Of a stretch of DNA of 64,000 nt, positions 10,317 through 59,426 are shown piece after piece; positions within the stretch are counted from its first letter, which is position 1; every line of letters begins with the position of its first letter. This stretch comes from a virus. The notes under the pieces are model-generated. The model saw only the letters and a list, made by a program, of their open reading frames with translations, had not been told where the DNA came from and did not search any database. Location of the stretch: the IMG/VR virus record IMGVR_UViG_3300025881_001243, positions 1-64,000 of that record; one strand, 5' to 3'. The translations under genes were made by a program, and so were the position numbers.

Positions 10317-10334
10317 TGAAAATATTTTGTAAAG

Positions 10335-11186: not shown

Positions 11187-11230
11187 TGGAAGAAATTGTT
11201 ATTACCATATTAGAAAAAGATAAAGAATAA
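11186..11230 (+). CDS. Tiny coupled ORF (14 aa), possibly a remnant
   Basis: The frame MEEIVITILEKDKE shares its first base with the preceding stop and its last base with the next start, so it is perfectly wedged between two genes. No folded domain is possible at this length. It may be a translation-coupling leader or the stub of a deleted gene. Confidence 0.3.
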   Translation: MEEIVITILEKDKE

Positions 11231-12156: not shown

Positions 12157-12172
12157 TAAAAATAAATATAGA

Positions 12173-13060: not shown

Positions 13061-13086
13061 AATAAATAAAAATAAAATAAAGAAAA

Positions 13087-13566
13087 ATGATATCCAGTAA
13101 AGCTAAAATAGGAAAAAATGTAGAAATAGGAAACTTTGTTGTTATTGAAGATGGGGTTGAAATCGGAGATGGTACAGTCATTCGAAATTTTGTAGAATTA
13201 AGAAAGAATACTAAAATTGGTAAAAATTGTTATATTGATTCAAGAGTATCCACATCAGGAAATTGTGAAGTCGGTAATGATGTAACTTTAAGATATGATG
13301 CTATTCTAGCTCGAGGCTGTAAAGTAGGTGATGGAACTTATATTTGCCCTAGGGTAATGACTAATAATCTTGATACAGGAAAAACTCAAATAGGTGGGGC
13401 CCATATTGGCAAAAATTGTTTTATTGGTACTAATACTGTATTCCAACATGGAGTTAAAATAGGAGATAACGTAGTAACGGGTGCTATGGCTTTTATAAAT
13501 AAAGATATTCCTGATAATGAAATATGGATAGGCTCTCCTGCTAAATTTTTTAAGATTAATAACTAA
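13087..13566 (+). CDS. Hexapeptide-repeat sugar acetyltransferase
   Basis: Nearly all 159 residues are left-handed beta-helix repeats (AKIGKNVEIGNFVVIEDG, VEIGDGTVIRNFVELRKN, AHIGKNCFIGTNTVFQHG), ending in the family-typical IWIGSPAKFF. It resembles WlbB/WbpD-type N-acetyltransferases acting on UDP-amino sugars. A His in VFQHGVKIG may be catalytic. Its stop shares a base with the kdsB start, which ties it to the Kdo/LPS pathway. Confidence 0.8.
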   Translation: MISSKAKIGKNVEIGNFVVIEDGVEIGDGTVIRNFVELRKNTKIGKNCYIDSRVSTSGNCEVGNDVTLRYDAILARGCKVGDGTYICPRVMTNNLDTGKTQIGGAHIGKNCFIGTNTVFQHGVKIGDNVVTGAMAFINKDIPDNEIWIGSPAKFFKINN

Positions 13567-14279
13567 TGAATAAAGTAATTGCAGTAATACCGGCAAGATG
13601 GGGATCTACAAGATTGCCAGGTAAACCTCTTGCTGATATAAATGGAAAGCCAATGATACAGTGGGTTTATGAAGCTGTACAAAAATCCAATGCTGATAAA
13701 GTTATAGTTGCAACAGACCATAAAGATATTCTAAACGAAGTAAAAAAGTTTGGTGGGGAAGGTATTATGACTAGCACAAAACATCAAACTGGCACTGAGA
13801 GAGTATTAGAAGCTTATCAACACTATAAAGAAGATTATGGGTATGTTATTAATGTTCAAGGAGATGAGCCTATAATAAATGAGAATGATATTAATCTTTT
13901 AATTTCTGTACTTAAGAAAAATCCTCTTGATATTGCAACCTTAGTAGGTCCATTAACAAAACCACAAGCAAGTGATAGAAATACAGTAAAGGCATTACTT
14001 GATAATAATAAAATAATAATGTTTACAAGAAGTCCTGTTTTTACTACTCAATCATTATATGTTAAAAGGCATATAGGAATTTATGGATTCAGTAAGGTAA
14101 TGACAGAAAGAATTGATAAAAACATTATGATTGAAACTTCTAATGAAATAGTAGAAAATTTAGAGCAGATAAGATGGGGTGACAATGGAATCAGTTTTAA
14201 TTATGCTAGAGCAGCTGGTTTATATAAAGGTATAGATACACAAAAAGATTTGGATTACGTCCGTACATTCTTAAACTAA
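13566..14279 (+). CDS. kdsB: 3-deoxy-manno-octulosonate cytidylyltransferase (CMP-Kdo synthetase)
   Basis: The 237-residue protein matches KdsB from end to end: VIPARWGSTRLPGKPLADI at residues 6-24, VIVATDHKDI, ESTKHQTGTERVLEAY-like TKHQTGTERVLEAY, and VINVQGDEPIINENDI with the catalytic Asp. It activates Kdo with CTP for incorporation into LPS. KdsA and KdsC, needed between KdsD and KdsB, are absent from the window, so host enzymes or genes elsewhere must supply them. It is the last gene of the island. Confidence 0.92.
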   Translation: MNKVIAVIPARWGSTRLPGKPLADINGKPMIQWVYEAVQKSNADKVIVATDHKDILNEVKKFGGEGIMTSTKHQTGTERVLEAYQHYKEDYGYVINVQGDEPIINENDINLLISVLKKNPLDIATLVGPLTKPQASDRNTVKALLDNNKIIMFTRSPVFTTQSLYVKRHIGIYGFSKVMTERIDKNIMIETSNEIVENLEQIRWGDNGISFNYARAAGLYKGIDTQKDLDYVRTFLN

Positions 14280-15526: not shown

Positions 15527-16321
15527 ATGAGATTCATTAGAGACTTCAAACAATTTATTACAGAAAAGAAAGACGAGGACTTTGAAGATAAGATCAAAGG
15601 CCACGGCTATTACAAAGGCATCTCAACTTCTACTGCGAGGGCTAAAGAAAAACAAATGAAAGATCAGGCATCTAAAGCTGATGACGATCCTTCTGCTTAT
15701 AAAGAATTACCTGGTGATACTAAAGGTAAAAAATCCCTAAAGAAATCTAAGCATACTAAAGCATTTGATGATTTATATGATGAAGCATTAGATGAAATGG
15801 TTACCAATGAAGGTGTAATGAGCGAATTACATATAATGATGGAAGAAGCAAAAAACTTTGCTGATTTTAAGAAAAGATTTTATAAAGAATTTAGCGATAA
15901 AGTTAAACCTAATAAAGATTTAGATGATTGGCTAAAGTCTTTATATGAGGATGGGTTATCTGAAGGTATTGATGAAAAGGCAAGTGGAGATCGCGGACCT
16001 ATAAAGGGAAAGGGAATCGAAACTGGTCTTAAAAATAAAGCAGAAAAAACAGGTGTATCATTACCTTTACTAAGACTAGTAATGAGGAGAGGTATGGCTG
16101 CATGGAAATCTGGGCATAGACCTGGCGCTGGGCAAGAGCAGTGGGGTTATGCAAGAGTTAACTCGTTTTTAACTAAAGCACCTGGTACTTGGGGTAGACC
16201 ATTAGATGATCCTAAAAAGAATGGGCCTAAGGGTTCTTATGGAGCTGATGCCGATATTGCTAAAGAAGTAATAAAGAAAGGTGAAGATAAGAAATTAAAA
16301 ACAACAGGATTACCTAAATAA
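15527..16321 (+). CDS. Predicted capsid-targeted protein with conserved marine-phage C-terminal domain
   Basis: The 264-residue protein opens with MRFIRDFKQFITEKK, which matches the T4 capsid-targeting pattern (MKTYQEFIAEA in T4 internal proteins), with a possible prohead-protease site ITE at residues 11-13. The lysine-rich middle is followed by a domain, residues ~175-264, with LVMRRGMAAWKSGHRPGAG, QWGYARVNSFLTKAPGTW and DADIAKEV. I know this block as a conserved hypothetical domain of T4-like cyanophages and pelagiphages. Packaging is inferred from the N-terminus and the neighbours. Confidence 0.7.
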   Translation: MRFIRDFKQFITEKKDEDFEDKIKGHGYYKGISTSTARAKEKQMKDQASKADDDPSAYKELPGDTKGKKSLKKSKHTKAFDDLYDEALDEMVTNEGVMSELHIMMEEAKNFADFKKRFYKEFSDKVKPNKDLDDWLKSLYEDGLSEGIDEKASGDRGPIKGKGIETGLKNKAEKTGVSLPLLRLVMRRGMAAWKSGHRPGAGQEQWGYARVNSFLTKAPGTWGRPLDDPKKNGPKGSYGADADIAKEVIKKGEDKKLKTTGLPK

Positions 16322-16322
16322 T

Positions 16323-16868
16323 ATGAAATTCGTAAAAGGCTTCAAAGATTTTGATAAAGTATCTGAAGAACTTAAATACCATATAGATAATGGATTAGGT
16401 TTAGACGATACTGTTTTCCGTTTAGGTTCAGATGCTCATGCCAAATTATTTGAAGAGGCAGAGCAGTATTGGGATAAAGGAAATATAGTATTAAATGGCA
16501 AGAGTGGATGGATGGCAAAAAACCTAGAAGTAGGAAAGAAAGCTATCTATAAAGACCGTAAATCTGGTAGAACTAAAAAAGTTAAACTTGATTCTCCAGA
16601 AAGAGGTGGTAATAAAAAGTTTATTGTTTATCGTAACACTGGTAAAACTGATAAAGAAACTGGTGAAATAGTAGCAAAGAAAATTGAATGGGGAGATCCA
16701 GGATTGTCTGTAAAGAATGATGATCCAGGAAGAGCTAAAAGTTTTTGGGCAAGGCATCAATGCGACCAAAAGAAAAAGATGGATCCTAATAAGACAGGAT
16801 TCTGGGCATGTTATGGGCCTTCTTTGTTTGGAAAGCAACTTGGTCTGAAGTCAACCAACCCTTGGTAA
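16323..16868 (+). CDS. Predicted head-associated protein with KSFWARHxC C-terminal block
   Basis: The 181 residues begin with MKFVKGFKDFDKVSEE, similar to the shared N-terminal signal but without a clean cleavage site. The C-terminal ~60 residues carry EWGDPGLSVKNDDPGRAKSF, WARHQCDQKKK and FWACYGPSLFGKQLG. This Cys/His-containing block is a recurring hypothetical domain in T4-like marine phages and may bind zinc. It lies 1 base after the previous gene. Confidence 0.65.
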   Translation: MKFVKGFKDFDKVSEELKYHIDNGLGLDDTVFRLGSDAHAKLFEEAEQYWDKGNIVLNGKSGWMAKNLEVGKKAIYKDRKSGRTKKVKLDSPERGGNKKFIVYRNTGKTDKETGEIVAKKIEWGDPGLSVKNDDPGRAKSFWARHQCDQKKKMDPNKTGFWACYGPSLFGKQLGLKSTNPW

Positions 16869-16869
16869 A

Positions 16870-16884
16870 TATATAAAACAATAA
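16870..16884 (+). promoter_or_regulatory. Late-like promoter box
   Basis: TATATAAAACAATAA lies 14 bases before the start at 16899 and resembles the late-like boxes elsewhere in the window. Confidence 0.35.
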
Positions 16885-16898
16885 AAATAAATAAAGAT

Positions 16899-18257
16899 AT
16901 GAAATTTATTCCAAACTATGGAGATTTTAAGAATTCATTAAACGAAGCTTCTTTTAATTATAATGATGATGTAGGCGAAACTAAATTAGGACAAGCCGCT
17001 AGTATAATTTGTTCTTTCTTAAATAAGAAGACTAAATTAGATTTTAAAATCTTTCCATTTGGTGTTAAATCAAATGGGGTAGAAGGTGTTATGTTATATA
17101 GCGCAAAAGGTACTGCCGCTGTTAGGGTAGGTGGTAAAGGAATGAATAGAGGTCCTGGTATTGTTGGTGATCTTGCTTATTTCTCTGATGCATCAAAAAG
17201 AACTGCTGATTTTGTTATGAGTAGTGAGAATTTTCCTATTACTTCATTATGTTATGAATTTGCAAAATTAATTAGCGAACCTGCATATGTTAAAGAAGTT
17301 GAAACTTTACAAGAATCTGTTAATGAAGGTAAGCGTGGTGTATTAAAACCACAAGAACAGAAAATGGTAATGAAACAATTAAAATCTGGTAAGAGTGCCG
17401 CAAAGATTGCTAGAGATCTTGGTATATCATACGGAGCTATTCTTAAATTAAAAAAGAATGAAACTGTTACATTAGAAGAGCCTACTGCCGTTAAAGCAAA
17501 TGAAGAAACTTTAGAAGATAAAGTTAAATTCCTAGATGAAACTTTGACTGATATTTATGATATAGCCAGAAAGGTTGCCGCAGGAGCATTTAATTCACTA
17601 ATGATATCCGGTAGAGCAGGTACAGGTAAAACTTTCAGTGTAGAGAAAGCGCTAAAGGATGAAGGACTTACTGCTGATGATGATTATATTATTGTTTCAG
17701 GTGCTGTATCAACAATTATGATGTTTAAGAAAATGTTTCAGTATAGAAATAAAGTTTTAGTATTTGATGATTGTGATGCTGTATTTAGAGATGAAAATGG
17801 CCGTAATATATTAAAGGCCGCACTTGATACAAAAAAGATAAGAAGAATATCTTATCTTAAGAAAAGTGGATTAGTATTTGATCCTAAGGATTTTGAAATG
17901 GATCCTGAAGGAGAATTTAATATGATAGAAAATGGAATGGTTCCAGCATACTTTGATTTTGCAGGTAGGGTAATATTTATATCTAACCTTGCAAAAGATA
18001 AAGCTGACCCTGATGGTGCTATTCGTTCAAGATCTATTTTAATTGATGTTAACCCAGATGATGTAACATTAATGGAAAGAATTAAAACTCTATTACCTTA
18101 TTTAGAACCTAAGGATATGCCAATGAAAGACAAAGAAGAAATTTATGAATTTATGAAAAAGGCAAATGATGTTTCTATGAGGACTTTTGTTAAGGCTGCA
18201 GGTTTTAAAGTAGCAGGTTTACCTAACTGGGAAAGAATGTCAAAAAGATATTTATAA
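16899..18257 (+). CDS. Predicted capsid-targeted polyprotein with HTH and AAA+ ATPase domains
   Basis: The 452-residue protein starts with MKFIPNYGDFKNSLNEASF, giving a cleavage-like LNE/A at residues 14-17. A second site, SVNEG, lies near residue 142. After it come a resolvase/transposase-like helix-turn-helix (SGKSAAKIARDLGISYGAIL, about 165-184) and an AAA+ module with Walker A GRAGTGKT near 238-245 and Walker B VLVFDDCDAVF near 285. An arginine-rich region (AGRVIFISNLAKDKADPDGA) follows. If processed, the mature product would be a ~310-residue ATPase. An ATPase carried in the head could act on DNA during or just after injection; this is inference. Confidence 0.75.
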   Translation: MKFIPNYGDFKNSLNEASFNYNDDVGETKLGQAASIICSFLNKKTKLDFKIFPFGVKSNGVEGVMLYSAKGTAAVRVGGKGMNRGPGIVGDLAYFSDASKRTADFVMSSENFPITSLCYEFAKLISEPAYVKEVETLQESVNEGKRGVLKPQEQKMVMKQLKSGKSAAKIARDLGISYGAILKLKKNETVTLEEPTAVKANEETLEDKVKFLDETLTDIYDIARKVAAGAFNSLMISGRAGTGKTFSVEKALKDEGLTADDDYIIVSGAVSTIMMFKKMFQYRNKVLVFDDCDAVFRDENGRNILKAALDTKKIRRISYLKKSGLVFDPKDFEMDPEGEFNMIENGMVPAYFDFAGRVIFISNLAKDKADPDGAIRSRSILIDVNPDDVTLMERIKTLLPYLEPKDMPMKDKEEIYEFMKKANDVSMRTFVKAAGFKVAGLPNWERMSKRYL

Positions 18258-18259
18258 TT

Positions 18260-19729
18260 ATGAAATATATTAAAAGTAGAATTGATTTTATTAATGAAAA
18301 GAAGTCTAACAATTTAAATGAAGGGCAATTTTCATGGATGACTCAGGATTCTAATAAACAAATAGGATCTGAAAAACAAAATACTATCGATGTTTATATG
18401 TATGACAACGAAGGTAATAAATGGAAGGAAACTAGATATGACGGTTATGGAGTATTTGGTGGAATGGATTTTTATGATCTTGTTGCTACTATGAACGGTT
18501 ATGATGCCGATAGAGAAAAAGGTATTGATTTAGCTTTTGGTAAATTAAAAACTAAAGATAAAAAGAGAAAGACGTTATTTCCTGCTTTAGTAGAAGATCC
18601 TAGATACAATTGGAAAAGACATAATTTTACAGAACAACCTGAAAATGATCCAAACCAATCATGGTACCAAGAAGAAGAAGATGATGGATATGATGATTAT
18701 TATGAATCTACAGTTACTGAAGGTAAAGGATGGAATGATGTTGCAAGAGTAATGGATTCTGGATTAAAAAAGGCTATAAAGAAAGGGGTAACCAATTTAA
18801 GGTATGCTCAAGATTATGTTAAATCATTAGAAAGAATGGCAAAGAAAAATGCTAAACAGTTCTTTAATGATTATGGAGATTTTACTGAAGATGATTTTAT
18901 TGAAGATGTAAGATATAATATGGCTAATGAAAAAGTTAATGAAGGCAGAGCTTCAGCCGATAGATTACTTAAAGATGTTATAAACGGTAATACATCTGAA
19001 GTTGAAGGTATTAAATTATCTAAGGATATGGCACAAGGCTTTGCGGATTGGTTACGATATTCTACATACGGTAAAAAGTTTGGGTCTTTACCTTTTGATA
19101 AATTATTTACCGCTGCGTTTAATTGGGGATTAGATAGATTTGTTAAAGGTGCTAATACTAAAGTAAAGGATGAGTTTAAAGAACTTAAGGCTAAAGCTAA
19201 AGAAATGCGTAAGGCTGAAATGAAAGGTGAATCTCTTACTGAAGGTAAAGGTGATAAAGCCGTAAGTATGGCACAGAAAAATTTAGATAAGGTAATAACA
19301 GATCTTAAAGCTAATCTTTTAAAATTTAAAGGTGCTAAAACAGATTCAGATAAAGAAAAATTTAAATCTGAAGCAAAGAGATTAACTAAGCTAAGAAAGG
19401 ATGCACAGGATAATTTAGAAGACGCTATATCAAATGCTTATGCCGAAGTTGAATTAGTAGTAATGGAAAATTATGATACTGAACAAAGAAAGGAAATGGC
19501 ATCAAAAGGATTAGCTTTACCTGATGGTAGCTTTCCAATTAAAAACTTAGAAGATTTAAAGAATGCTATTCAGGCATACGGTAGAGCAAAAGATCAATCA
19601 AAAGCTGCAAAGTTTATAGCAAAAAGAGCAAAAGCTTTAAGTGCTGAGGATTTAATTCCAGACACTGAAGATTTTCAAAAAGCTTTAAAAGAAGCATCAT
19701 TCGGAAGAATACCAAAATTTGGAGAATAA
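18260..19729 (+). CDS. Predicted capsid-targeted polyprotein, four cleavage-like sites
   Basis: The 489-residue protein begins MKYIKSRIDFINEKK and has cleavage-like sites LNE/G at residues 19-22, VTE/G near 152, VNE/G near 227 and LTE/G near 327. The segments between them are different in character: an acidic Trp/Tyr-rich one, a Lys-rich helical one, a compact hydrophobic one (YGKKFGSLPFDKLFTAAFNW) and a long charged coiled-coil-like tail. No enzymatic motif is visible. The pattern is that of several small domains made as one chain and cut in the prohead. Confidence 0.7.
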   Translation: MKYIKSRIDFINEKKSNNLNEGQFSWMTQDSNKQIGSEKQNTIDVYMYDNEGNKWKETRYDGYGVFGGMDFYDLVATMNGYDADREKGIDLAFGKLKTKDKKRKTLFPALVEDPRYNWKRHNFTEQPENDPNQSWYQEEEDDGYDDYYESTVTEGKGWNDVARVMDSGLKKAIKKGVTNLRYAQDYVKSLERMAKKNAKQFFNDYGDFTEDDFIEDVRYNMANEKVNEGRASADRLLKDVINGNTSEVEGIKLSKDMAQGFADWLRYSTYGKKFGSLPFDKLFTAAFNWGLDRFVKGANTKVKDEFKELKAKAKEMRKAEMKGESLTEGKGDKAVSMAQKNLDKVITDLKANLLKFKGAKTDSDKEKFKSEAKRLTKLRKDAQDNLEDAISNAYAEVELVVMENYDTEQRKEMASKGLALPDGSFPIKNLEDLKNAIQAYGRAKDQSKAAKFIAKRAKALSAEDLIPDTEDFQKALKEASFGRIPKFGE

Positions 19730-19730
19730 T

Positions 19731-20756
19731 ATGAAATACTTTAAAACATTTGAAAAATATAAATACGGCGTTAATGGTGTAGGTTCCCTTAAGAATTCAT
19801 TGGCTGCATTAAAAAGACAAAATATTACTGGTCGTTATGTAGATCCTGAAACTTTAGCGCAAGGCATCCGTAATGAATATGAAGCTATCACAGGTGAGAA
19901 ATATGAAGATGAAGTTCAGATGTCAATGGATAATACTATTGCTGATATTATTGGTCATTATAAATTAGATGGTCCAGAATTTATGGCTGCATGGGATAAA
20001 GTAATTAAAGAATCAGTTAATGAAGCAGTAAAACCCATTAAGCTTTCTGGTAACTTAAAGAAAGACTTAAAAGTTGTCACAGCTATGGCAGAAAAAATGG
20101 TTAAGTATGCTAAAGACAACTTCAATACATATATACCAACAGGCGAAAAGCTCAGTCAACTAAAGCTCGGAGGTACTAAAGAAAAAGATGTTTTGAAATA
20201 CAATATCAATCACCTAGCAAAGGCAATCAATACAGACTTAACAAAGAAGTATATGAAAGACTTTGTAGCTGAATCAGTAAATGAACAATATACAAAGAGT
20301 TTAGGTTTTAATGTAACTAATGATAATATTTATAAGTTAACTAAGTCATTAGATCCTAATGGTAGATTATGTAAAAATATTTCTAAAGGTTCTGATAATG
20401 TAAAGCCTGAGTTTACTGAAATGCAAAAACTAATGGAAGAAATCCAAAGAATATGGGGTGAGGTTGAGTATATTATTAGTATGTCAAATGAATCCGTTAA
20501 TGAAAAACCAGAAGAAGTTACAGAATCTTATAAAGGTAACTTTACTGATTTTAAATATGATTTAGAAATGGCTATAGATAATATGGATATTTCTCCTAAG
20601 GCAATTAAATCAGTCAAGAAAAAAGGCAATGGTTATGAAGTAAGGCTATCTTCTTATATGAGTGATAAATCTACATGGGAAAAGATTGGTGATACAATCG
20701 GAGCCACACTTATATCATTTAAACCTGGTAGTATTAATATTGGGATATACGAATAA
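19731..20756 (+). CDS. Predicted capsid-targeted polyprotein, three VNE sites
   Basis: I chose the ATG at 19731 rather than a TTG 12 bases upstream because it gives MKYFKTFEKYKYG, the shared N-terminal signal, and directly follows the preceding stop. The 341-residue chain contains ESVNE at about residues 93-97, 180-184 and 252-256, each ending a helical segment of ~75-90 residues. The last module (FTDFKYDLEMAIDNMDISPK, GNGYEVRLSSYMSDKS) looks like a small alpha/beta domain. No family is recognised. Confidence 0.7.
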   Translation: MKYFKTFEKYKYGVNGVGSLKNSLAALKRQNITGRYVDPETLAQGIRNEYEAITGEKYEDEVQMSMDNTIADIIGHYKLDGPEFMAAWDKVIKESVNEAVKPIKLSGNLKKDLKVVTAMAEKMVKYAKDNFNTYIPTGEKLSQLKLGGTKEKDVLKYNINHLAKAINTDLTKKYMKDFVAESVNEQYTKSLGFNVTNDNIYKLTKSLDPNGRLCKNISKGSDNVKPEFTEMQKLMEEIQRIWGEVEYIISMSNESVNEKPEEVTESYKGNFTDFKYDLEMAIDNMDISPKAIKSVKKKGNGYEVRLSSYMSDKSTWEKIGDTIGATLISFKPGSINIGIYE

Positions 20757-21205: not shown

Positions 21206-23224
21206 ATGGGAGAGATATATCCAGAAGAAGACAGCATCAAAAAAGAGCCAGGTAAAATTAAAAAAGGAAATAGTCTCACAATCCTTGATACGTATGGAAC
21301 CAATGTAACTGACTTAGCAGTGAATAAAAAACTAGATCCAGTTATTGGTAGAGAAGATGAAATTCTAAGAGTTGTACAAATTTTAGGTAGACGTAGAAAA
21401 AACAATCCTGTTTTAGTAGGAGAACCTGGTGTAGGTAAGACTGCAATTGTAGAAGGTTTGGCTTCTCGTATTATTGAAGGTAATGTTCCTGTTACTTTAC
21501 AAGGAAAAATTATTTATACATTAGAACTGTCTACTATAGTTGCAGGTACAAAATATCGAGGGCAGTTTGAAGAAAGAATGAAAGCAATAGTTGATGAGTT
21601 AATTGAAAATCCTCATGTAATTATTTTTATAGATGAACTTCACACTATTATGGGGGCAGGTGGATCTACAGGATCTTTAGATGCTGCTAATATTATTAAG
21701 CCTGCATTAGCCCGTGGTGAAATCAGATGTATAGGAGCAACTACTTTTGATGAATTTAGAGAAAGTATTGAATCTGATGGCGCATTGGATAGAAGGTTTC
21801 AAAAGGTTGTAATTGAACCTCCTTCATTAGAAGAAACTGTTGAAATTTTATCTCACCTAAGACATAAGTATTCTGATTTTCATAATGTAAATTACTCTGA
21901 TGAAATTATCCAAATGATAGTTAAGGTTGCTGACCAATACATGATGGATAGATATTTTCCAGATAAAGCAGTAGATATTTTAGATGAGGTAGGTTCTTAT
22001 AAGCATCTTAAGCATATTAAGATTCCTAAAAAGATAAAAAATCTAGAAGCTAAATTAATAATTAAACAAAACGAAAAGAAAGATGCAGTAAAGTCACAGC
22101 GTTATGAACTCGCTGCTCAAAATAGAGATGACTGTTTAAATATTCAATCTAAAATTTCTAGAGAATACAAATCATGGAAGGCTGAATTATCAGAAGTGAA
22201 AATGGAAATTACTGAAGATGATATTTTATATGTAATTTCTAAAGCAACAGGTATTCCTGTAGAAAAGATAACAGACAAAGAACATAAGAACCTATTAGGT
22301 ATTAATAAACATCTATCATCTAAAGTAATGGGACAAGATGAAGCTATTAATAAAATATCAATGACCATCCAACGAAACCGAGTAGGTATACGAAAGAGAA
22401 ACAGGACTATGGGTAATTTTATTTTCTTAGGTCCAACTGGTGTAGGTAAGACTCAATTAGCCAAAGAGATAAGTTCTTATATGTTTAATTCTGAAGAAGA
22501 TCTTATTCGTATAGATATGACCGAATATATGGAAGCTCATTCTGTTTCTAAATTAATAGGAGCACCTCCTGGTTATATAGGGCATGAGGGTGGTGGCTTT
22601 TTAACAGAGCAGGTGAAAAGAAAACCGCATTCCGTTATATTATTTGACGAGGTAGAGAAAGCCCATCCAGAAGTCTTTAATGTATTACTTCAAATGTTAG
22701 ATGATGGTTATTTAACCGACTCATTAGGTAGAACTATTGATTTTAGAAACTGTCTTGTTATTTTAACATCAAACACAGGATCAAGAAAGGTTCAAGAATT
22801 TGGAACCGGTATTGGTTTTAGCAGAAAAACTGTTGCTGAAGAACAAGCAGAAGAAAAGAGTATTATTAATAAAGCCCTTAAGTCAAAATTTGCACCAGAA
22901 TTTTTAAATAGGATTGATGAAGTAATTGTTTTTAATTCTCTTACAAAAAATACTGTAATGTCAATTTTAAATAAAGAATGTAAAGAACTTGCAGAGAACC
23001 TAGTAGATGTAGGAGAATATACATTGAAAATATCTAAGGGTGCTAAAGATATTATTTTGGATCAAGGCTTTGATCCTAAGTACGGTGCTAGGCCACTAAG
23101 AAGAGCACTAGAGCGATTAATAGAAAATCCTGTAGCAGAAATGATTCTTAAGAAAGAAATCGAAGAAGGTGATATCATTAAAGTTACAGGTTTAAAAGGT
23201 ATTTTAACAATTAAAAAAGATTAA
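21206..23224 (+). CDS. clpC: ClpC-like AAA+ unfoldase lacking the N-terminal Clp repeat domain
   Basis: The 672 residues contain both AAA+ modules of a class I Clp: Walker A GEPGVGKT at residues 72-79 and GPTGVGKT at 409-416, Walker B IIFIDE and [13 protein letters not shown], and a UVR-like motif ([20 protein letters not shown]) between them, which points to ClpC rather than ClpB. The usual ~150-residue Clp_N domain is missing. A ClpP partner is not encoded here. It may redirect the host ClpP or remodel phage proteins. It has its own promoter. Confidence 0.9.
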
Positions 23225-32602: not shown

Positions 32603-32959
32603 ATGGAAAACTTACACACATTTGAATCCCTTAATGAAGCTAAGAAATTAGACACTATTAAAAAACAAGTTTTGGATTTTGCTGAAAAGAACGGTAAATC
32701 TAAATGGGGAGACTTACAAAAACATATCTTAACTCTTAAAGGATTAGATCCAAAAGATAGAGATAACCGCGGTCAATTTTCATCTTATTTTTCAGGAGGC
32801 TCTTCATGGCAATCAAAAGGAAAGGATACTAAATTAGGAAGAGACGCAAACTCACACGGTTTATTAATGAGACCTACTAAAAAAGATCCTCGTTACCTAG
32901 AGAAGGATGGCAATGAATATGTTGTAAAGGTATGGGACGGTAAATCTAAATTATCATAA
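32603..32959 (+). CDS. Predicted capsid-targeted small protein
   Basis: The 118-residue protein begins MENLHTFESLNEAKKL with LNE/A at residues 10-13, like a T4 internal-protein leader. The rest is basic and has ILTLKGLDPKDRDNRGQFSS, YFSGGSSWQSKGKDTK and GLLMRPTKKDPRYLEKDGN. The last half is a conserved-looking hypothetical domain. Mature size after cleavage would be about 105 residues. Confidence 0.7.
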   Translation: MENLHTFESLNEAKKLDTIKKQVLDFAEKNGKSKWGDLQKHILTLKGLDPKDRDNRGQFSSYFSGGSSWQSKGKDTKLGRDANSHGLLMRPTKKDPRYLEKDGNEYVVKVWDGKSKLS

Positions 32960-32960
32960 T

Positions 32961-33287
32961 ATGAAAAACTTTAATGAATTTATAAATGAAGCGGTAAACT
33001 ACAAAGATCGTAGTGGTAAGCCATTTAAGATAAAGGGTATTGATTTTGTTTATACTGAACAGGGTGGTAGGTTTTATGGAACTTCATTATATGATGTAGC
33101 AAAAACTGCAAATGTAAATAAAAGATCTAAGATAGATTATGAAGATTCTAAAAAACTATTAAAGTCATTAGGCATCAGAGAAGAATTGCCTAGATCTTAT
33201 GGACCAGGTACTTTAGATAAAATATGTAAAGAATTAAAAAAGAAAGGCATCGTTTGTGATCATGGAGATTACATGGATGTATCCTAA
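32961..33287 (+). CDS. Predicted capsid-targeted small protein
   Basis: The 108-residue protein opens with MKNFNEFINEAVNYKD, a near match to the T4 internal-protein leader, with INE/A at residues 8-11. The mature part is basic and includes IDFVYTEQGGRFYGTSLYDV and KIDYEDSKKLLKSLGIREEL. It starts one base after the previous gene. Confidence 0.7.
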   Translation: MKNFNEFINEAVNYKDRSGKPFKIKGIDFVYTEQGGRFYGTSLYDVAKTANVNKRSKIDYEDSKKLLKSLGIREELPRSYGPGTLDKICKELKKKGIVCDHGDYMDVS

Positions 33288-33313
33288 ATATATAAAAAAA
33301 TTAATCTAAACAT

Positions 33314-34132
33314 ATGAAATATATTAAAGACTTCGATACAATTATCGAAAGTAAATCAAACGATAACCTAAACGAAGGTTCTAAGTTAATAGATGAAAAA
33401 ACTGGAAAAGTTGTTAAATTACCTTATAAGACTAAAGACTTTAGAGGAGATGCAATTACAGTTAAAGGTTTTACCGACCCGCACAAATCAAGCTCAAGCG
33501 GTAGAATACAAACAGACAAAGGAGAATTCTTTCCTGGTGTTGCAGGGGTTAAGATTATAGGACATCAATTTGAATCTATGAATGAAGCTAAATTCGTAAG
33601 TTCATATGATACAGAAGTAAATGATGCTGAAACTAAAAAAGAAATAAAGAAAATTTATCCAAATGCAAAATTCTTTATTGGTAAACATTCACACTTCTTT
33701 GGAGAACTCGAACCAAACCTTTTCTTTAAAGCTTATTATGCTAAAGAAATAGAATATGATACTGGTGAAGCGATTAAAGGTGATTTTAAAATCACTTCAG
33801 TTTATTCTAAGAAAGGAAGCAACTATGTAGAATTAATGAAAGAATCATTAGTTACTGAAGCTAAGAAATTTAAGCCTGGTGATAAATGGTCAAGTGATTT
33901 TGATTATGAAGGTATGTTAAAGTATGCATTAAAAGTAAATGAGAAAACTCCTATTAAGATGTTGAATAAATTATTTGACTCTGCTACTGATGTAAACTAT
34001 CATACACCTTTTAGAAACTTAGGTATTGCAATCGATTGGATTGAAGATGGTGATAAGAAAGGTGCTAAGGATTACATAAAGAACTTTCATGATGACATTA
34101 AGGAAGAAATGAAAGATCAAGGAATAAAATAA
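33314..34132 (+). CDS. Predicted capsid-targeted polyprotein
   Basis: The 272 residues begin MKYIKDFDTIIESKSNDNLN with LNE/G ending near residue 22. Further sites are MNE/A near 89 and VTE/A near 180, so three modules of about 65-90 residues result. The last module (FDYEGMLKYALKVNEKTPIK, LFDSATDVNYHTPFRNLGIA) is a helical domain repeated in similar form in the following gene. A late-like box (33289-33300) lies upstream. Confidence 0.7.
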   Translation: MKYIKDFDTIIESKSNDNLNEGSKLIDEKTGKVVKLPYKTKDFRGDAITVKGFTDPHKSSSSGRIQTDKGEFFPGVAGVKIIGHQFESMNEAKFVSSYDTEVNDAETKKEIKKIYPNAKFFIGKHSHFFGELEPNLFFKAYYAKEIEYDTGEAIKGDFKITSVYSKKGSNYVELMKESLVTEAKKFKPGDKWSSDFDYEGMLKYALKVNEKTPIKMLNKLFDSATDVNYHTPFRNLGIAIDWIEDGDKKGAKDYIKNFHDDIKEEMKDQGIK

Positions 34133-34137
34133 GAACT

Positions 34138-35349
34138 ATGAAATATTTTAAAACTCATTCTGAATTTTTAAATGAAGCTAAATTATCTGCTATTCATAAA
34201 GCTGCAAAGAAAGGAAGTTATCCTGTAACTGTGGTGGTAGTAAGTAATGGTTCAGTTACTAAACAAGAAATAGTTAATACTCCTGCGGCAGTACCTGCTG
34301 TATTTAATGAATTACAAAAAGAATATCCTGGTGCTACTATCAATATTGAATCTAAAACCGGAGAAACCTTATTTGTAGAATCTGTAGTTAATGAAAAATT
34401 GGCAAGAGGTTTAAAACCATTATTAAAGACAGGGTCAACTATTACTAAAAAAGTTGGAGAAGATGCATTGCTAGATTTATCTGATAAGTTTGATAGAATA
34501 GATGATGAATATGCTGGAACTATAGCAAGTTGGTTAGACATGGCTATTGAATTAATGCAAGATGGTTATGCAGGAGATGCTACTAAAAAATTAAAGCAAT
34601 TTAATAAAGCATGTAAGGATGTTCTTAATGGAAAGGATGTTGGTTCAGCTTTTGAATCAACAATTACCGAAGGTAAATTTACTAAGAGATCATTGATGAA
34701 AGCTATGAAAAAGGATGATGGTTTTATTCAACTAGGTAATGGTCAAGAATATGTTATCTATAATCCTAATAACGGTAACCAAGATAATACTGATATGTGG
34801 GATGATAAAGTTATCTTTGCATTAGACCAAGACGGCGAAGAGCATGAAATTAAATATTCTGATATTGTAAGCTACAATGAAAGTCGTAAAATAAATCTTA
34901 AAGCTGCTCATCTATCTTCTGAAGAATATCAAAAGGCAAAAAAGCTTAAAGACTTTGATAAAGAAGATTGGGAATGGAATTCTAAATCTGGTCTTTATGA
35001 TAGAGTTAATGAAGCAACAGATTTAAATGATCCTGTATTAGTATCATATAGAGCTACGAGAAAAACTTTACCTAAATTTAAACCTACTAAAGCAAAATCA
35101 CGTAGGTTAAGTTTTGATAAGTATATGGATTTATTAGATGCCAGGCTTGACATAGATCAACAGATTAAAGATTTACGTGATGAAATGTCTCAAACACTTA
35201 GAGACATGGAACAAGAAGCTGAACCAGAAGGTGGTGAAATTGCTGATGAGTATGGTTCTACTATGATGAAGCAAGAAAAAGAATATGCTAAACTAATGGC
35301 CAAGAAGGATAAGATCATGGCTAGAATTGACAAACACAGAATGGCTTAA
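34138..35349 (+). CDS. Predicted capsid-targeted polyprotein, four cleavage-like sites
   Basis: The 403-residue protein opens MKYFKTHSEFLNEAKLS (LNE/A at 11-14). More sites are VNE/K near 84, ITE/G near 176 and VNE/A near 290. The module at 95-170 (LLDLSDKFDRIDDEYAGTIA, SWLDMAIELMQDGYAGDATK) resembles the last module of the preceding gene, which suggests module sharing. The C-terminal 110 residues are a charged coiled coil. No enzyme motif is seen. Confidence 0.7.
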   Translation: MKYFKTHSEFLNEAKLSAIHKAAKKGSYPVTVVVVSNGSVTKQEIVNTPAAVPAVFNELQKEYPGATINIESKTGETLFVESVVNEKLARGLKPLLKTGSTITKKVGEDALLDLSDKFDRIDDEYAGTIASWLDMAIELMQDGYAGDATKKLKQFNKACKDVLNGKDVGSAFESTITEGKFTKRSLMKAMKKDDGFIQLGNGQEYVIYNPNNGNQDNTDMWDDKVIFALDQDGEEHEIKYSDIVSYNESRKINLKAAHLSSEEYQKAKKLKDFDKEDWEWNSKSGLYDRVNEATDLNDPVLVSYRATRKTLPKFKPTKAKSRRLSFDKYMDLLDARLDIDQQIKDLRDEMSQTLRDMEQEAEPEGGEIADEYGSTMMKQEKEYAKLMAKKDKIMARIDKHRMA

Positions 35350-35351
35350 CT

Positions 35352-36122
35352 ATGAAATATTTTAAAACATACGAAGGATTTAAAAAGGACTATATGAAAA
35401 AGATAGACCTTAAAGATTTTAAGAAAATCAAAAAAGGTTCTAAGATTTTATATATGGGCGGACCCGTAGAAGTACTTGACAATAATGGCTATGTTTTAAA
35501 ACTAAAAGGTAAAGATGGTAAAACCTTTATGGTTAATAAATCTCAATTTGATCATGGTGGAATGATTAGAGAAGGTTGGGGTAAAGCACCTAACGCAGAT
35601 AAAGCAATGAGAGATTTAAAAAAGAAAGGATCTGTAAATGAAGCAGTTTACATTCCTAGTAATATTGAAGAATTTGCTAAGAGGAAAGGAATATTACCTT
35701 TAGTAAAGAAAATAGGAAGATGGGCAGAAAAAGCCGGTAAAAGAATTAATGGTGGAACTGCAATAGGTAAATATTATGATACTTTAATATTAGATCTAAA
35801 ACACCAAGGTGGAGAGATTAGAGTTAACATTGATACTGACGAAGTAAAATTACACGGTACCGTTGTTACTGATCCTAAATCTTTTAAAAAGGCGTTAAAA
35901 GAATCTATTAATGAAGACATGGAAGGTGTTAAGAAAGATATCATGGATCATTGGTATGAACTGTATGGAGAAAAGTTTATTAATAAATATCCTGCTGTTG
36001 CAAAAATCTTAAAGCAACGAAAAAATGTAGATGCCAGAGAACTTTCAAGAATCTGGGATGAAACATACGGAGAAGACTTCAAAGAAAAATATCCTGCCAT
36101 GTGGGACAAGCTTTCTAAATAA
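35352..36122 (+). CDS. Predicted capsid-targeted polyprotein
   Basis: The 256 residues start MKYFKTYEGFKKDYMKK. Sites VNE/A near residue 95 and INE/D near 186 divide it into three modules: a beta-rich KOW/SH3-like one (GSKILYMGGPVEVLDNNGYV), an alpha/beta one (FAKRKGILPLVKKIGRWAEK, GKYYDTLILDLKHQGGEIRV), and a short helical one with two similar repeats (YGEKFINKYPAVAKILKQ and YGEDFKEKYPAMWDKLSK). Confidence 0.7.
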   Translation: MKYFKTYEGFKKDYMKKIDLKDFKKIKKGSKILYMGGPVEVLDNNGYVLKLKGKDGKTFMVNKSQFDHGGMIREGWGKAPNADKAMRDLKKKGSVNEAVYIPSNIEEFAKRKGILPLVKKIGRWAEKAGKRINGGTAIGKYYDTLILDLKHQGGEIRVNIDTDEVKLHGTVVTDPKSFKKALKESINEDMEGVKKDIMDHWYELYGEKFINKYPAVAKILKQRKNVDARELSRIWDETYGEDFKEKYPAMWDKLSK

Positions 36123-39368: not shown

Positions 39369-39944
39369 GTGGCTAATATACCTACTTTTGAAAATTTTAA
39401 TCATAACACAATGTTGGTTAATGAAACTTATGAAATATTAGAAGGTCAAATATCTCATGATGAGTTATCTGAAATTTTAAACGAAGGCATCTTCTCATTT
39501 ATTAAAGGTATCTTCTCTAATCCAAAAAAGAAAAGAGAATTAGATAAACTTGGTGAAGAATTATTTAAATTAAAAGTAGAGCTTCAAAAAATACAAATAG
39601 AAGAAGATCAAATAGATGTATTTAAAGATGAGGTGAAATCAAAAGGTAATGATTATACTTCAACAAAATCTAAGATAGATGTTGCAGATAAAGCTAAAGC
39701 CGCAAAGATACAAGCATTGAGAAAGAAAGAAGAAATTACTATTTCTAAAATGGATGCAATCGGAGAAGGAAATGATAAACTAACTAAATATGTTAATAAA
39801 GTAAAGTTAGAAATTAGAATCCGAGCCAACGATGCTATTATAAAACTTGCGGATGATGAAATAGCAAGAGTCTTAAAACAGATGCAGAAGAAAGATGCTA
39901 AAGAAATTAAAATCCTGGATAAAGAATTGGCTAAAGCCGCGTAA
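39369..39944 (+). CDS. Predicted capsid-targeted helical protein
   Basis: It uses a GTG start, giving VANIPTFENFNHN (read as Met), related to the capsid-signal pattern. Sites ILE/G near residue 26 and LNE/G near 39 fit prohead cleavage. The remaining ~150 residues are charged coiled coil (KLGEELFKLKVELQKIQIEE, DEIARVLKQMQKKD). 191 residues in total. It could be a scaffold- or core-like protein of the prohead. Confidence 0.6.
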   Translation: MANIPTFENFNHNTMLVNETYEILEGQISHDELSEILNEGIFSFIKGIFSNPKKKRELDKLGEELFKLKVELQKIQIEEDQIDVFKDEVKSKGNDYTSTKSKIDVADKAKAAKIQALRKKEEITISKMDAIGEGNDKLTKYVNKVKLEIRIRANDAIIKLADDEIARVLKQMQKKDAKEIKILDKELAKAA

Positions 39945-39999
39945 AGCAAATAGAGTTGATGAATGGGATAATTGGTACCCAGATAATGATTTAGATTAA
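39895..39999 (+). CDS. Small ORF overlapping the end of the helical protein (34 aa)
   Basis: In the next frame, MLKKLKSWIKNWLKPRKANR then an acidic aromatic end (DEWDNWYPDNDLD). Its stop lies one base before the next ATG and the 50-base overlap is long. An amphipathic basic helix with acidic tail is plausible as a real product, but there is no further support. Confidence 0.4.
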   Translation: MLKKLKSWIKNWLKPRKANRVDEWDNWYPDNDLD

Positions 40000-40000
40000 T

Positions 40001-40348
40001 ATGGCAAATTTTGAAAATAGACCTTGGGGTAGGTTTGATATTCTACTAGATACTCCTAAATGCAAAGTAAAAATAATTGAAGTAAAACCTAATCAAAGGC
40101 TAAGCTATCAATATCATAAACACAGAGCAGAGAGATGGGTTGTGGTTGAAGGTACATTAACAGTTATACTTAATGACGTAGAGCATACCTTAAATTATGG
40201 AGACTTTATTGATATACCTAAAGGTGATAAACATCGTGCTTGGAATAAAACGGAAAACCCTACAAAGTTTATAGAAACGCAAATCGGAACCTACTTTGGT
40301 GAAGATGACATAGTTAGAGTATCAGATGACTATAATAGAACAGTATGA
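40001..40348 (+). CDS. Cupin, mannose-6-phosphate isomerase type II-like domain
   Basis: The 115 residues match the C-terminal cupin of type II phosphomannose isomerases: ENRPWGRFDILLD, VKIIEVKPNQRLSYQYHKHR, AERWVVVEGTLTVIL and YGDFIDIPKGDKHRAWN. The metal-site residues (QYHKHR...E...H) are present. It lacks the nucleotidyltransferase half. It probably isomerises mannose- or fructose-6-phosphate, or another sugar phosphate, for glycan synthesis. Confidence 0.8.
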   Translation: MANFENRPWGRFDILLDTPKCKVKIIEVKPNQRLSYQYHKHRAERWVVVEGTLTVILNDVEHTLNYGDFIDIPKGDKHRAWNKTENPTKFIETQIGTYFGEDDIVRVSDDYNRTV

Positions 40349-40566
40349 AATTTAGATCAGGTAAGTATAAAGGAGTTGATGTAGAAACAGTTAAAAGAAT
40401 GGCTCCTTGGTATATTCAATGGGTACGTGAAAACAGACCAGAGATGTTAAGAGCTTCTAAACAACCACATCCAAAACCTTATAAAAAACCGGTATATGTA
40501 GATCCACCAGATATACCAAAGGCTGGAGCAATAAAGCCTAACTACGATTTTGACAATATGTTTTAA
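40345..40566 (+). CDS. Small basic protein, ExoX-C/DUF3820-like
   Basis: The 73 residues start MKFRSGKYKGVDVETVKRMA and PWYIQWVRENRPEML, matching the short GKYKG...YIxW module that follows some exonucleases or stands alone as DUF3820-like proteins. The rest is Pro/Lys-rich. It overlaps the cupin stop by four bases. Confidence 0.6.
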   Translation: MKFRSGKYKGVDVETVKRMAPWYIQWVRENRPEMLRASKQPHPKPYKKPVYVDPPDIPKAGAIKPNYDFDNMF

Positions 40567-40570
40567 TTGA

Positions 40571-40586
40571 CAATATATAAATCAAA
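40571..40586 (+). promoter_or_regulatory. Late-like promoter box
   Basis: CAATATATAAATCAAA contains TATAAAT, 11 bases before the start at 40598. Confidence 0.45.
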
Positions 40587-40597
40587 TAATCTGTGTA

Positions 40598-40846
40598 ATG
40601 AAATACATTCAAACTCTAAATGAAATGAATACAGCTGGGTATGGTAACGATCCTAAGAAACCTAAAGCTATCGATAAGGTAGAGATTAGAGTTGCAAATT
40701 GGAGAGATGGTTTAAAGAAAGGCTGGACTCCAACTACACAGTATAGCCCAAGGCTCGCAAAGCTAAGAAAGCAATGGGAAGATGTAATTGAAAAGCATAA
40801 AGACCAATGGCAACCAAAGTATAATTTTGGTGATCTCTTAGCATAA
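40598..40846 (+). CDS. Predicted capsid-targeted small protein
   Basis: The 82-residue protein begins MKYIQTLNEMNTAGYG with LNE at residues 7-9. The rest is basic and compact (VEIRVANWRDGLKKGWTPTT, LAKLRKQWEDVIEKHK). It sits apart from the two main clusters, behind a late-like box. Confidence 0.55.
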   Translation: MKYIQTLNEMNTAGYGNDPKKPKAIDKVEIRVANWRDGLKKGWTPTTQYSPRLAKLRKQWEDVIEKHKDQWQPKYNFGDLLA

Positions 40847-58300: not shown

Positions 58301-58678
58301 TTATATTCCTAGGTCCTTATGAAGAACTTTCATAAAACCATCAAAAGTATGTTTCCCATAATCTTCTCTTAAGATTTTTCCAATTGCTAAAGCAAAATCT
58401 GTATAAGACATTGAATCATCTATCTTAATCATTGCTTTATCCATTGCTTTTGCTAATGCATCTGATTTTTTAGATTCGTCTATATTTGAAGTTTTCCAAT
58501 GTTCACTATCACCAGCACCACGAGCAGGGTGAACTCCGCCAAAGTCCTGGTATGCAGGAGTACCTGTTGCATTAGTATCTTGCCCGGCCATTTCATCCCA
58601 ATAATTTTTAAAATCTTGTACTGTTCCTTTATAATGGCGGATCTTACTTAAATCCTTTCGTTCTTGATTGTTTTCCAT
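58301..58678 (-). CDS. Protein of the minus-strand capsid-targeted block
   Basis: The 125-residue protein (MENNQERKDLSKIRHYKGTV) lacks the shared leader. It contains FKNYWDEMAGQDTNATGTPA, DFGGVHPARGAGDSEHW and a helical end. It overlaps the upstream gene by one base and is the last gene before the shared terminator. Association with the head is inferred from its neighbours only. Confidence 0.65.
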   Translation of the reverse strand: MENNQERKDLSKIRHYKGTVQDFKNYWDEMAGQDTNATGTPAYQDFGGVHPARGAGDSEHWKTSNIDESKKSDALAKAMDKAMIKIDDSMSYTDFALAIGKILREDYGKHTFDGFMKVLHKDLGI

Positions 58679-58923
58679 TATTTACCGAATTTTGTTTTGA
58701 GCTTATGAATTTCGGTCTGTACCTTTAATCCTTCAAGATCAATTTTATCCATTTTTATTTTTAATTCGTATAAAGCAATTGCATAATTATCGCCTCTATC
58801 TTGAGCTGCTCTATATCTTTGGATATTTTCTTTTTCCCTAGCTTTTAATCTAGCAGCAGCCTCATTAGGTTTAAATTCATAATCAGATGCTTCATTTAAA
58901 TAGTTGTTAAATTTAGGTATCAT
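58678..58923 (-). CDS. Predicted capsid-targeted small protein
   Basis: The 81 residues begin MIPKFNNYLNEASDYEF with LNE/A at residues 9-12, like a T4 internal-protein leader. The mature part would be a helical, charged protein (AAARLKAREKENIQRYRAAQ, LEGLKVQTEIHKLKTKFGK). Confidence 0.68.
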   Translation of the reverse strand: MIPKFNNYLNEASDYEFKPNEAAARLKAREKENIQRYRAAQDRGDNYAIALYELKIKMDKIDLEGLKVQTEIHKLKTKFGK

Positions 58924-59426
58924 TATACTTTATAATTTTTAAGGAGATCTTTCAATTCTACAATATCAGCAGGATTTAATTGAACATAATTTCTTCCTAT
59001 GTTTATTTGCATACATTTTCTTCCTAAGCCAAAATCTTCAATATCCTTGGGTCCAACAAATGTAGTTATTTGCGCATTATCAGAACCTTTAATTCCAGCT
59101 TGGTTCCATGAACTAATATCAGTCCCTTCATTAAGAGTAGATTCGCCCATAGCAGAATAACTTTCACACGCTTCATCTATCTTATCGTTGATATGTTTTT
59201 TTGCTTCTTTAATATATGATTCTGCTGTATGTTCAGCATTATCATTAGATTCATAGCTATTTGCCTGTTCTGCTACATGATTACCTAGTGTTTGTACTGG
59301 GCCTACTATAGCGTTCATATCATATCCTGTTTCTGCTCGATTAGTTCCTCCTAAGGAAAAAGATGCAGAATCACTAGGTGCAAAACCTACAGGAATAAAA
59401 TCTTCAAATAAAGGTACCTTTTTCAT
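58923..59426 (-). CDS. Predicted capsid-targeted protein
   Basis: The 167-residue protein starts MKKVPLFEDFIPVGFAPSDS, a related leader, and has a site LNE/G near residue 99 (STLNEGTDISSWNQ). The N-terminal half is Ser/Asn/Ala-rich and helical, the C-terminal half beta-rich (MQINIGRNYVQLNPADIVEL). It is the first gene of the only minus-strand operon; a TATATAATCAAAATAA-like late box read on the minus strand lies about 15 bases upstream. Confidence 0.65.
   Translation of the reverse strand: MKKVPLFEDFIPVGFAPSDSASFSLGGTNRAETGYDMNAIVGPVQTLGNHVAEQANSYESNDNAEHTAESYIKEAKKHINDKIDEACESYSAMGESTLNEGTDISSWNQAGIKGSDNAQITTFVGPKDIEDFGLGRKCMQINIGRNYVQLNPADIVELKDLLKNYKV

Follow-up and report, generated by a model that had tools for sequence, protein, structure and literature searches.

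Why do five adjacent phage genes begin with variants of one short leader, and why do three of the encoded chains carry predicted protease sites far inside? The question is raised by a cluster at positions 15527-20756 of the window, a 64,000-nucleotide stretch of a viral record that is itself a 67-kb fragment (Table 1). A sequence-only reading had likened the leader to that of the T4 internal proteins, which directs proteins into the prohead and is removed by the protease gp21, and the open reading frames do lie as it described. We consider it probable that the five genes encode head-targeted precursors of a T4-type phage, namely capsid-targeted, modular polyproteins cut by the prohead protease; their packaging, cleavage, retention and injection, and the functions of the modules, are what we infer. 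New is the behavior of the segments between predicted cut sites, which act as exchangeable modules.

Table 1. Features of the window; an arrow marks a predicted cut
Feature	Coordinates	Strand	Description
Promoter-like motif GAATAAATAA	15502..15511	+	Upstream of P1
P1	15527..16321	+	264 aa; leader MRFIRDFKQFITE↓KK, then a chain with a C-terminal DUF5824 domain (residues 169-217)
P2	16323..16868	+	181 aa, single domain; leader MKFVKGFKDF (MKFVKGFKDFDKVSE)
Promoter-like motif ATATATAA	16869..16876	+	Upstream of P3; same motif before the G004 portal and protease genes
P3	16899..18257	+	452 aa; leader MKFIPNYGDFKNSLNE (..SLNE↓A), N-terminal domain, VNE143↓GK, HTH-like stretch, NrdC.10-like AAA ATPase
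Predicted cut site VNE143↓G in P3	17319..17327	+	
P4	18260..19729	+	489 aa; leader MKYIKSRIDFINEKKSNNLNE, then four modules, D1-D4
D1 (P4 residues 22-154)	18323..18721	+	Ends VTE↓G; directly behind the leader in L002/L091 (GEALITE↓GQFSW), 64% identity
D2 (P4 residues 155-228)	18722..18943	+	Ends VNE↓G; 74-77% identity in homologues
D3 (P4 residues 229-328)	18944..19243	+	Ends LTE↓G; 57-88% identity in homologues
D4 (P4 residues 329-489)	19244..19729	+	Contains the ALPDGSFPI domain; G004 has D4 behind a leader of its own (FITE↓AYSDED)
P5	19731..20756	+	341 aa; leader MKYFKTFEKYKY without cut site; VNE98↓A, VNE185↓Q, VNE258↓K, VTE265↓S
Second cluster, five leader genes	32603..36122	+	Starts 32603, 32961, 33314, 34138, 35352
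Two further leader genes	39369..40846	+	39369-39944 and 40598-40846, each with ATATATAA upstream
Two leader genes	58678..59426	-	58923-59426 has an LNE↓GTDI module, alone behind the leader in L003_12314

Leaders in these phages follow the consensus M-K-x-[IV]-K-x-[FY]-x-x-F. On a leader profile with a cutoff of 7, P1 to P5 score 12.7-21.6 (P1, 20.8), a support that is partly circular for P1 and P3, since both were among the profile seeds; 322 ORFs of the window and its relatives score at least 7, against about 5 expected from internal methionines. The likeness to T4 was borne out by a profile built only from these phages, on which IPI ranks first of 51 T4 proteins, with a score of 3.0 and the next protein at -6.1; IPIII, whose leader is one residue shorter, was missed by this ungapped profile. 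For P5, we take the leader ATG at 19731 as the start, the ORF list having taken an upstream TTG at 19719. The proposed cut after (L/I)xE stands for part of the cluster. Such a site ends the leader in P1, P3 and P4, and that of P1 ([IL].E) is kept in all six orthologues; in P2, VSE15 aligns with VSP in most relatives and the site is not conserved, and the P5 leader has no cut site at all. In 59 of the 78 members of an independent set, retrieved solely with the MKHIKLFE DNA pattern of the leader, an xE site follows the leader immediately. Megablast of the cluster region found no match among cultured phages, and P3 as a single-sequence query found none in IMG/VR, where P2 has 69 relatives; P2 gave no hit in bacterial and archaeal genomes, which were searched for a host.

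Internal sites are predicted in P3 (E143), P4 (E21, E154, E228 and E328) and P5 (E98, E185, E258 and VTE265). The sequence-only reading had placed them correctly to within three residues, missing VTE265, and they prove to be well above chance and at module boundaries. Judged by counts, it is [VIL][NT]E[GAS], and not (L/I)xE in general, that is conspicuous as a putative site: the former, a motif picked after the sequences had been seen, occurs internally seven times in the five proteins against 0.45 expected (0/2000 shuffles), and the latter is not enriched there (18 vs 15.0 expected). With the window excluded, more distant relatives hold 13 [VIL][NT]E[GAS] sites against 3.0, and within the close clade the counts are 39 against 3.2 in leader proteins and 44 against 22.8 in non-leader proteins. 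The motif [VIL]NE gives 63 against 16.6 expected. The broader leader set defined by the MKHIKLFE pattern has no enrichment of internal sites (5 vs 3.5), and the polyprotein feature is therefore confined to this lineage; the leader itself is much wider spread than the predicted multi-site chains. At cleavage position P4, F is found in 62% of leader sites, and S or E in internal ones, which have lost the leader's aromatic residues and kept its P1' preference for A, G or S. In the AlphaFold model of protein P4, which is of moderate quality (pLDDT 64.6), site 228 falls within a predicted helix and sites 154 and 328 in low-confidence stretches; the model of P3 was unusable (38.5).

How do the segments between these sites behave? 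One module may be internal in one phage, stand alone behind the leader in another and be reordered in a third. Thus D2 is found behind its own leader in L003 and L004 (FINE↓AKGWND) and follows D3 in L001, while D3 stands behind the leader in L001, L005 and G004 (ILE↓RRASA) and in L003 (INE↓GRAAA). Similarly, the N-terminal module of P5 is C-terminal in L008_13410, and residues 178-341 of P5 match 80-238 of L008_11930. The internal ends of such displaced homologies fall on [VIL][NT]E in 52% of cases, against 13.8% expected, and their starts in 28%, against 10.4% (0/300 permutations for ends and starts); K and D control motifs are not enriched. Our model alignment, A4, covers D1, D3 and D4, because MAFFT misplaced D2 and D4 fragments. 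L049 and L060, otherwise near-identical, are set apart by the gain of one module and the loss of another, with the joins exactly at VNE/INE. The modules seem to be strung behind a capsid-entry tag and swapped at exactly the protease-type joints.

It is conceivable that these chains are ordinary fusions of neighbouring leader genes, in which internal NE motifs are relics of leaders, no internal cutting takes place and the proteins act whole. A complete leader is indeed retained inside L049_2521 (MKKLQTLESFVNE↓KK), and neighbouring genes hold the same modules separately. However, most internal sites keep [VIL][NT]E↓[AGS] although the leader aromatics are gone, the P3 junction [VL]NE↓[AG] is kept in 5/5 orthologues across a one-residue shift and variable flanks, and inserted modules bring a site at either end, so that we regard plain fusion as unlikely.

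What do the modules resemble? P1 matches Pfam DUF5824 (7.4e-15) and phrog_3041 (1.5e-18). Residues 163-449 of P3 match phrog_1250, an NrdC.10-like AAA family (8.1e-41), with weak matches to an HTH at 151-192 and to AAA_16 (5e-5, under the curated cutoff); the free-standing relatives of its AAA part, VH7D gp167 and DAC16_79, come without leader and without the N-terminal domain. With the P4 model as query, fold searches yielded nothing in the PDB at E below 0.001; the only matches were short viral ones (about 40-50% identity over 75-90 columns), which we take to be the D4 domain; a D4-related domain occurs in a Microbacterium phage protein adjoining the major capsid protein.

These contents bear on a further alternative, in which the proteins are prohead core or scaffold parts that are cut to pieces and lost from the head as it matures, and not cargo that is kept and injected. 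The T4 prohead protease cuts the core proteins gp22, gp67 and gp68 at many (L/I)xE sites into several pieces, which are mostly removed (PMC9026906), and core-like sequences rich in sites are also encoded by G004, the closest long relative of the window (at 174235-175968, and in the tail of the protease). Unlike that scaffold, the predicted pieces here include conserved domains, among them the P3 AAA ATPase with its conserved nucleotide-binding motifs and the HTH-like part, and modules keep 57-88% identity across phages that order them differently, a hint that it is the folded modules that count. A scaffold role is, in our estimate, improbable.

A gp21-like prohead protease, which had been named as something to look for in the flanking genome, is absent from the 67-kb fragment; of 20 long relatives, however, 17 have one, a T4 gp21-type S77 protease scoring above cutoff. 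G004 encodes a Gp23-type capsid protein and a T4-type portal besides this protease, whose S77 domain runs from 18182 onward, and a leader gene (22041-23111) follows its capsid gene directly. Shortly after the protease domain comes a conserved VNE, which the alignment pairs with VNE159 of T4 gp21. We equate LNE↓S of the major capsid protein with the T4 gp23 site only tentatively, as the two did not coincide in the alignment. The promoter-like ATATATAA lies upstream of 26 G004 genes, against 1.9 expected, including the portal gene, the protease gene and eight leader genes; in the window, seven of the ten genes with either promoter-like motif are leader genes (p 1.8e-5, post hoc). The T4-type late promoter TATAAATA was not seen before leader, portal, protease or capsid genes. 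Gene 33314 of the second cluster has two modules, in reverse order relative to L003_11058. That the leader, a short amphipathic N-terminus, targets the chains elsewhere (host membrane, chaperone or replication compartment), with the E-ending sites serving a host protease or another phage protease, is very improbable given that its best T4 match is IPI, that leader, portal and protease genes have a promoter-like motif in common and that a leader gene adjoins the G004 capsid gene.

How do these chains compare with known packaged proteins? T4 IPI, IPII, IPIII and Alt have a similar short leader, M-K-x-F/Y-x-x-F ending in [LI]xE and followed by A or S, and T4 too places one leader before many small proteins unrelated to each other and encodes a gp21-type protease. 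Here, in contrast, there are several domains per chain with sites between them, the modules are shuffled and the core of the site is [VIL][NT]E. Contrary to the earlier view that T4 cargo is cut only N-terminally, Alt undergoes a further cut close to its C-terminus (PMC9026906); cuts in T4 internal proteins are confined to the chain ends, whereas P3, P4 and P5 have predicted sites between modules and are therefore not plain T4-type internal proteins. In the phiKZ-like SPN3US, packaged proteins such as gp53 and gp54 are processed by the prohead protease gp245, long propeptides being cut more than once; the motif in that phage is (S/A)-X-E, the cuts fall in propeptides and the portion of the account drawn on here describes no shuffled modules between sites (PMC10052503). 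In the present phages the motif that is conspicuous is [VIL]NE, and the protease is of the S77 gp21 type. Polyvalent proteins (Iyer et al. 2017, PMC5512222) are multidomain polypeptides with shuffled architectures, a makeup to which module homology points here too; polyvalent proteins are thought to be packaged and delivered. Their processing has been proposed to depend on built-in zincin-like metallopeptidases (PMC5512222), whereas P1-P5 have a T4-type leader and prohead-protease-type sites, and Pfam searches of them up to E 1 found neither such a peptidase nor any other listed polyvalent-protein effector domain.

The phrog_3041/T4-GC190 nucleotidyltransferase proteins of cyano-, pelagi- and methylophilales phages are also leader-bearing chains, and a P1-type DUF5824 (HTVC008M gp130) occurs in the same chain as the nucleotidyltransferase, but their homology to this cluster is only distant. 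One of them, a distant analogue, the cyanophage S-SM1 nucleotidyltransferase with leader MKKFSAFLNEA, was detected in purified virions (PMC3037559); in Melnitz_18 the nucleotidyltransferase domain shares a chain with P1- and P2-type domains. We rejected a reading of the phrog_3041 homology that would place P1 itself in virions: the S-SM1 virion protein is no homologue of P1, its match being limited to the nucleotidyltransferase part.

We propose the following model for the leader-tagged polyproteins. The leader would work like the T4 internal-protein capsid targeting sequence and draw the chain into the prohead core, where the gp21-like S77 protease would cut behind the E of [VIL]-[NT]-E, most often where A, G or S follows. 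Cutting would strip the leader where a site is present (P1, P3 and P4) and split P3, P4 and P5 into modules, for example D1 to D4 in P4 and, in P3, the HTH together with the NrdC.10-like AAA part. Once freed, the modules would stay in the head alongside the DNA and probably pass into the host when the phage infects. Since one and the same short cut site flanks every module, recombination at the sites could gain, lose or reorder modules without mutual harm. With about even confidence, we extend this model to an exchangeable cargo system, in which each genome may encode leader-tagged polyproteins drawn from a shared pool of modules bounded by prohead-protease sites. Once packaged, these modules would be released by the head protease; phages would trade cargo by recombining at the sites, and a single leader would serve to deliver many effectors.

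If this is correct, phage capsid cargo would not be bound to one gene, one leader and one protein, and a T4-type head could carry polyproteins that are dissected by its own maturation protease. The grammar of cut sites would then predict capsid cargo and module boundaries from sequence in many uncultured leader-bearing phages, and would offer a ready way of loading several proteins from one chain into a T4-type capsid. For the phages themselves, it would provide a mechanism for the fast exchange of early-infection proteins.

The five adjacent leader-bearing genes (encoding P1–P5), their leaders and their listed internal sites were all found where the sequence-only reading had placed them, and about 14 leader genes occur across the whole window. 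A leader profile for this phage group found 322 leader-bearing ORFs at a score cutoff of 7 against about 5 expected, an abundance far beyond chance. Built from these marine phages alone and run on 51 T4 proteins, the profile ranked the known internal protein IPI first (score 3.0, runner-up -6.1); the profile, being ungapped, did not pick up IPIII, which has a leader shorter by one residue. Adjoining the cluster, genes at 9720–14279 (isomerase, hexapeptide acyltransferases, cytidylyltransferase) resemble those for sugar-nucleotide or Kdo-type surface polysaccharide synthesis, and immediately 3′ of it, at 21206–23224, lies a 672-aa ClpA/ClpB-like AAA+ protein, with synteny in the relatives L001 and G004.

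Leader genes, P4 modules and upstream motifs in the window
Feature	Position	Strand	Remark
Leader cluster, P1–P5	15527–20756		5 genes
Second leader cluster	32603–36122		5 genes
Further leader genes	39369–40846		2 genes
Leader genes	58678–59426	minus	2 genes
P4 module D1	residues 22–154		bounded by predicted sites
P4 module D2	residues 155–228		bounded by predicted sites
P4 module D3	residues 229–328		bounded by predicted sites
P4 module D4	residues 329–489		starts at predicted site
ATATATAA/GAATAAATAA	upstream of 1548, 3027, 5147, 15527, 16899, 32603, 33314, 39369, 40598, 58923(-)

Worded for the broad gp21 motif (L/I)xE, the claim of internal cut sites would be weak, since this motif is not enriched in P1–P5 (18 versus 15.0 expected). 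It stands for the narrower [VIL][NT]E[GAS], picked post hoc after the sequences were inspected, which occurs 7 times versus 0.45 expected (0 of 2000 shuffles). The narrower motif is also found 13 times versus 3.0 expected in 60 more distant leader proteins, window excluded, with only a mild excess (44 versus 22.8) in non-leader proteins of the same phages.

The segments between sites behave as exchangeable units. In relatives, D1 of the 489-aa P4 lies immediately behind a leader (GEALITE|GQFSW, the bar marking the predicted cut), D2 behind a leader (FINE|AKGWND) or downstream of D3, and D3 (SILE|RRASAD or SINE|GRAAAK) and the conserved part of D4 (FITE|AYSDED) behind leaders. At 33314–34132, two modules are inverted in order relative to the ORF L003_11058, with MNE|AKFV matching VNE|AKFV and VTE|AKKF matching LNE|AKKF at the junctions. 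Among 176 displaced homologies (after deduplication), 52% of internal ends fall on [VIL][NT]E versus 13.8% expected, and 28% of starts versus 10.4% (0 of 300 permutations); control motifs with K or D instead of E show no enrichment. The cleanest exchange separates two relatives' ORFs, L049_2521 and L060_7778, whose DNA is 95–98% identical: one module is gained (VETVSE|AKIARK...HESLNE|DYDK against VESINE|DYDK), and the other difference is a lost module (AESVNE|KKELPK...ESFVNE|KKDQT against AESVNE|KKDQT). In a P4 structure model (14 sequences, mean pLDDT 64.6), sites 154 and 328 lie within low-confidence stretches (65–162, 323–328) and site 228 inside a helix; the P3 model was unusable.

Are the internal sites mere fossil leaders from fused leader genes? 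An entire leader persists inside L049_2521, and leader-gene fusion is therefore one source of them. However, the leader aromatics are lost internally, where cut-site position P4 is S or E rather than F (62% in leaders), whereas positions P3–P1 are unchanged, as is the P1′ preference for A/G/S (29/20/13% versus 26/19/13%). In protein P3, moreover, [VL]NE|[AG] is kept at the junction in five orthologues despite variable, shifting flanks. Loss of the aromatics with retention of the site core fits selection for cutting.

The source record, a 67,256-base virus fragment, has no protease gene. The prohead protease called for by the sequence-only reading is present in relatives: 69 IMG/VR loci were retrieved with P2 as query, and among the 20 long contigs from which these come, 17 have an open frame of 504–747 aa whose Peptidase_S77 match exceeds the curated cutoff. 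In G004 (181.7 kb; P2 87% identical), the gene order is portal (phrog_213, 1.3e-70), S77 protease fused to a lengthy coiled tail, capsid protein of the Gp23 type (7.8e-31) and leader gene MAKLKTYSEFLNEG. Because the capsid protein's closest named relatives belong to phages infecting Bacteroidota (Prevotella Lak phages, Tenacibaculum phages), the host is likely a Bacteroidota member. RVNE, then SYG or SFG, directly follows the protease domain in all ten recovered proteases and aligns with VNE159 of T4 gp21. Near residue 45, the capsid proteins carry LNE|S in the G004 group and LYE|D in others, likely a propeptide site, although the alignment with T4 gp23 FLTE|A is not clean. In this group of phages, the protease and its long, coiled, repeat-bearing tail form one chain (G004 18182–19903, L080; L100–L107) of about 570–735 aa among proteins inspected, unlike the 212-aa T4 gp21, as if protease and scaffold were a single precursor divided at the conserved VNE. 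Adjoining leader genes, G004 174235–175968 (L088 14235–15968) encodes an acidic, core-protein-like 577-aa product in which GGNKGDKSKTK units recur and which has several [VIL]xE sites.

About 25 nt 5′ of the start codon, the promoter-like ATATATAA precedes 26 of 202 G004 genes (1.9 expected), including those for portal and protease as well as 8 leader genes. In the window it precedes 7 genes (0.7 expected), five of them leader genes. The related GAATAAATAA lies 5′ of P1 and of 32603; leader genes make up 7 of the 10 window genes with either motif (hypergeometric 1.8e-5, post hoc). This is consistent with leader genes being expressed together with head genes, possibly from a late promoter unlike T4 TATAAATA.

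P1 ends in DUF5824 (7.4e-15), and P3 contains an NrdC.10-like AAA ATPase (8.1e-41); where this ATPase has free-standing relatives, in Vibrio and Bacteroides phages, these carry no leader. The leader extends well past this phage group, since LR756502, a 642-kb uncultured huge phage, has a leader-bearing AAA protein among further leader genes (L114 8576–11070: MSRIRKYKEFITES, MKIKKYQAFYEAF with AAA, MKHLKRFSELNEG). Two adjacent proteins of Flavobacterium phage immuto (L108 9989–11054) begin MKKSELVKLIKEEL and MKKSQLREIIRKEL, possibly a second shared-leader type. A domain within D4 recurs in a 1548-aa protein of Microbacterium phage Cece, annotated as capsid maturation protease and adjoining the major capsid protein. 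Melnitz_18 joins a nucleotidyltransferase and the P1 and P2 domains in one chain; a homologue of this nucleotidyltransferase, the leader-bearing cyanophage S-SM1 protein (MKKFSAFLNEA...), was seen in purified virions (PMC3037559), indirectly the closest approach to physical evidence.

A separate IMG/VR scan for DNA encoding MKHIKLFE then x-F gave at least 120 stretches. Among the matches listed, 59 of 78 distinct proteins have an xE site behind the leader at residues 10–17, most commonly INE or VNE; most of the proteins are short, with a median of 174 aa, and have no excess of internal sites (5 versus 3.5). The leader class is thus widespread and similar to plain T4 internal proteins, and the internal multi-site chains are a trait of the window's lineage. 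Modular chains of this kind are not described in the papers retrieved on capsid targeting, prohead protease, polyproteins and jumbo phages, from a collection that covers a minority of subscription papers. We assign them to a variant of T4-type capsid-targeted internal proteins, rather than to the plain class, because their predicted cuts are not confined to the chain ends; they would work like capsid-targeted internal proteins that mature through cleavage by a gp21-type protease, with packaging, cutting and injection predicted.
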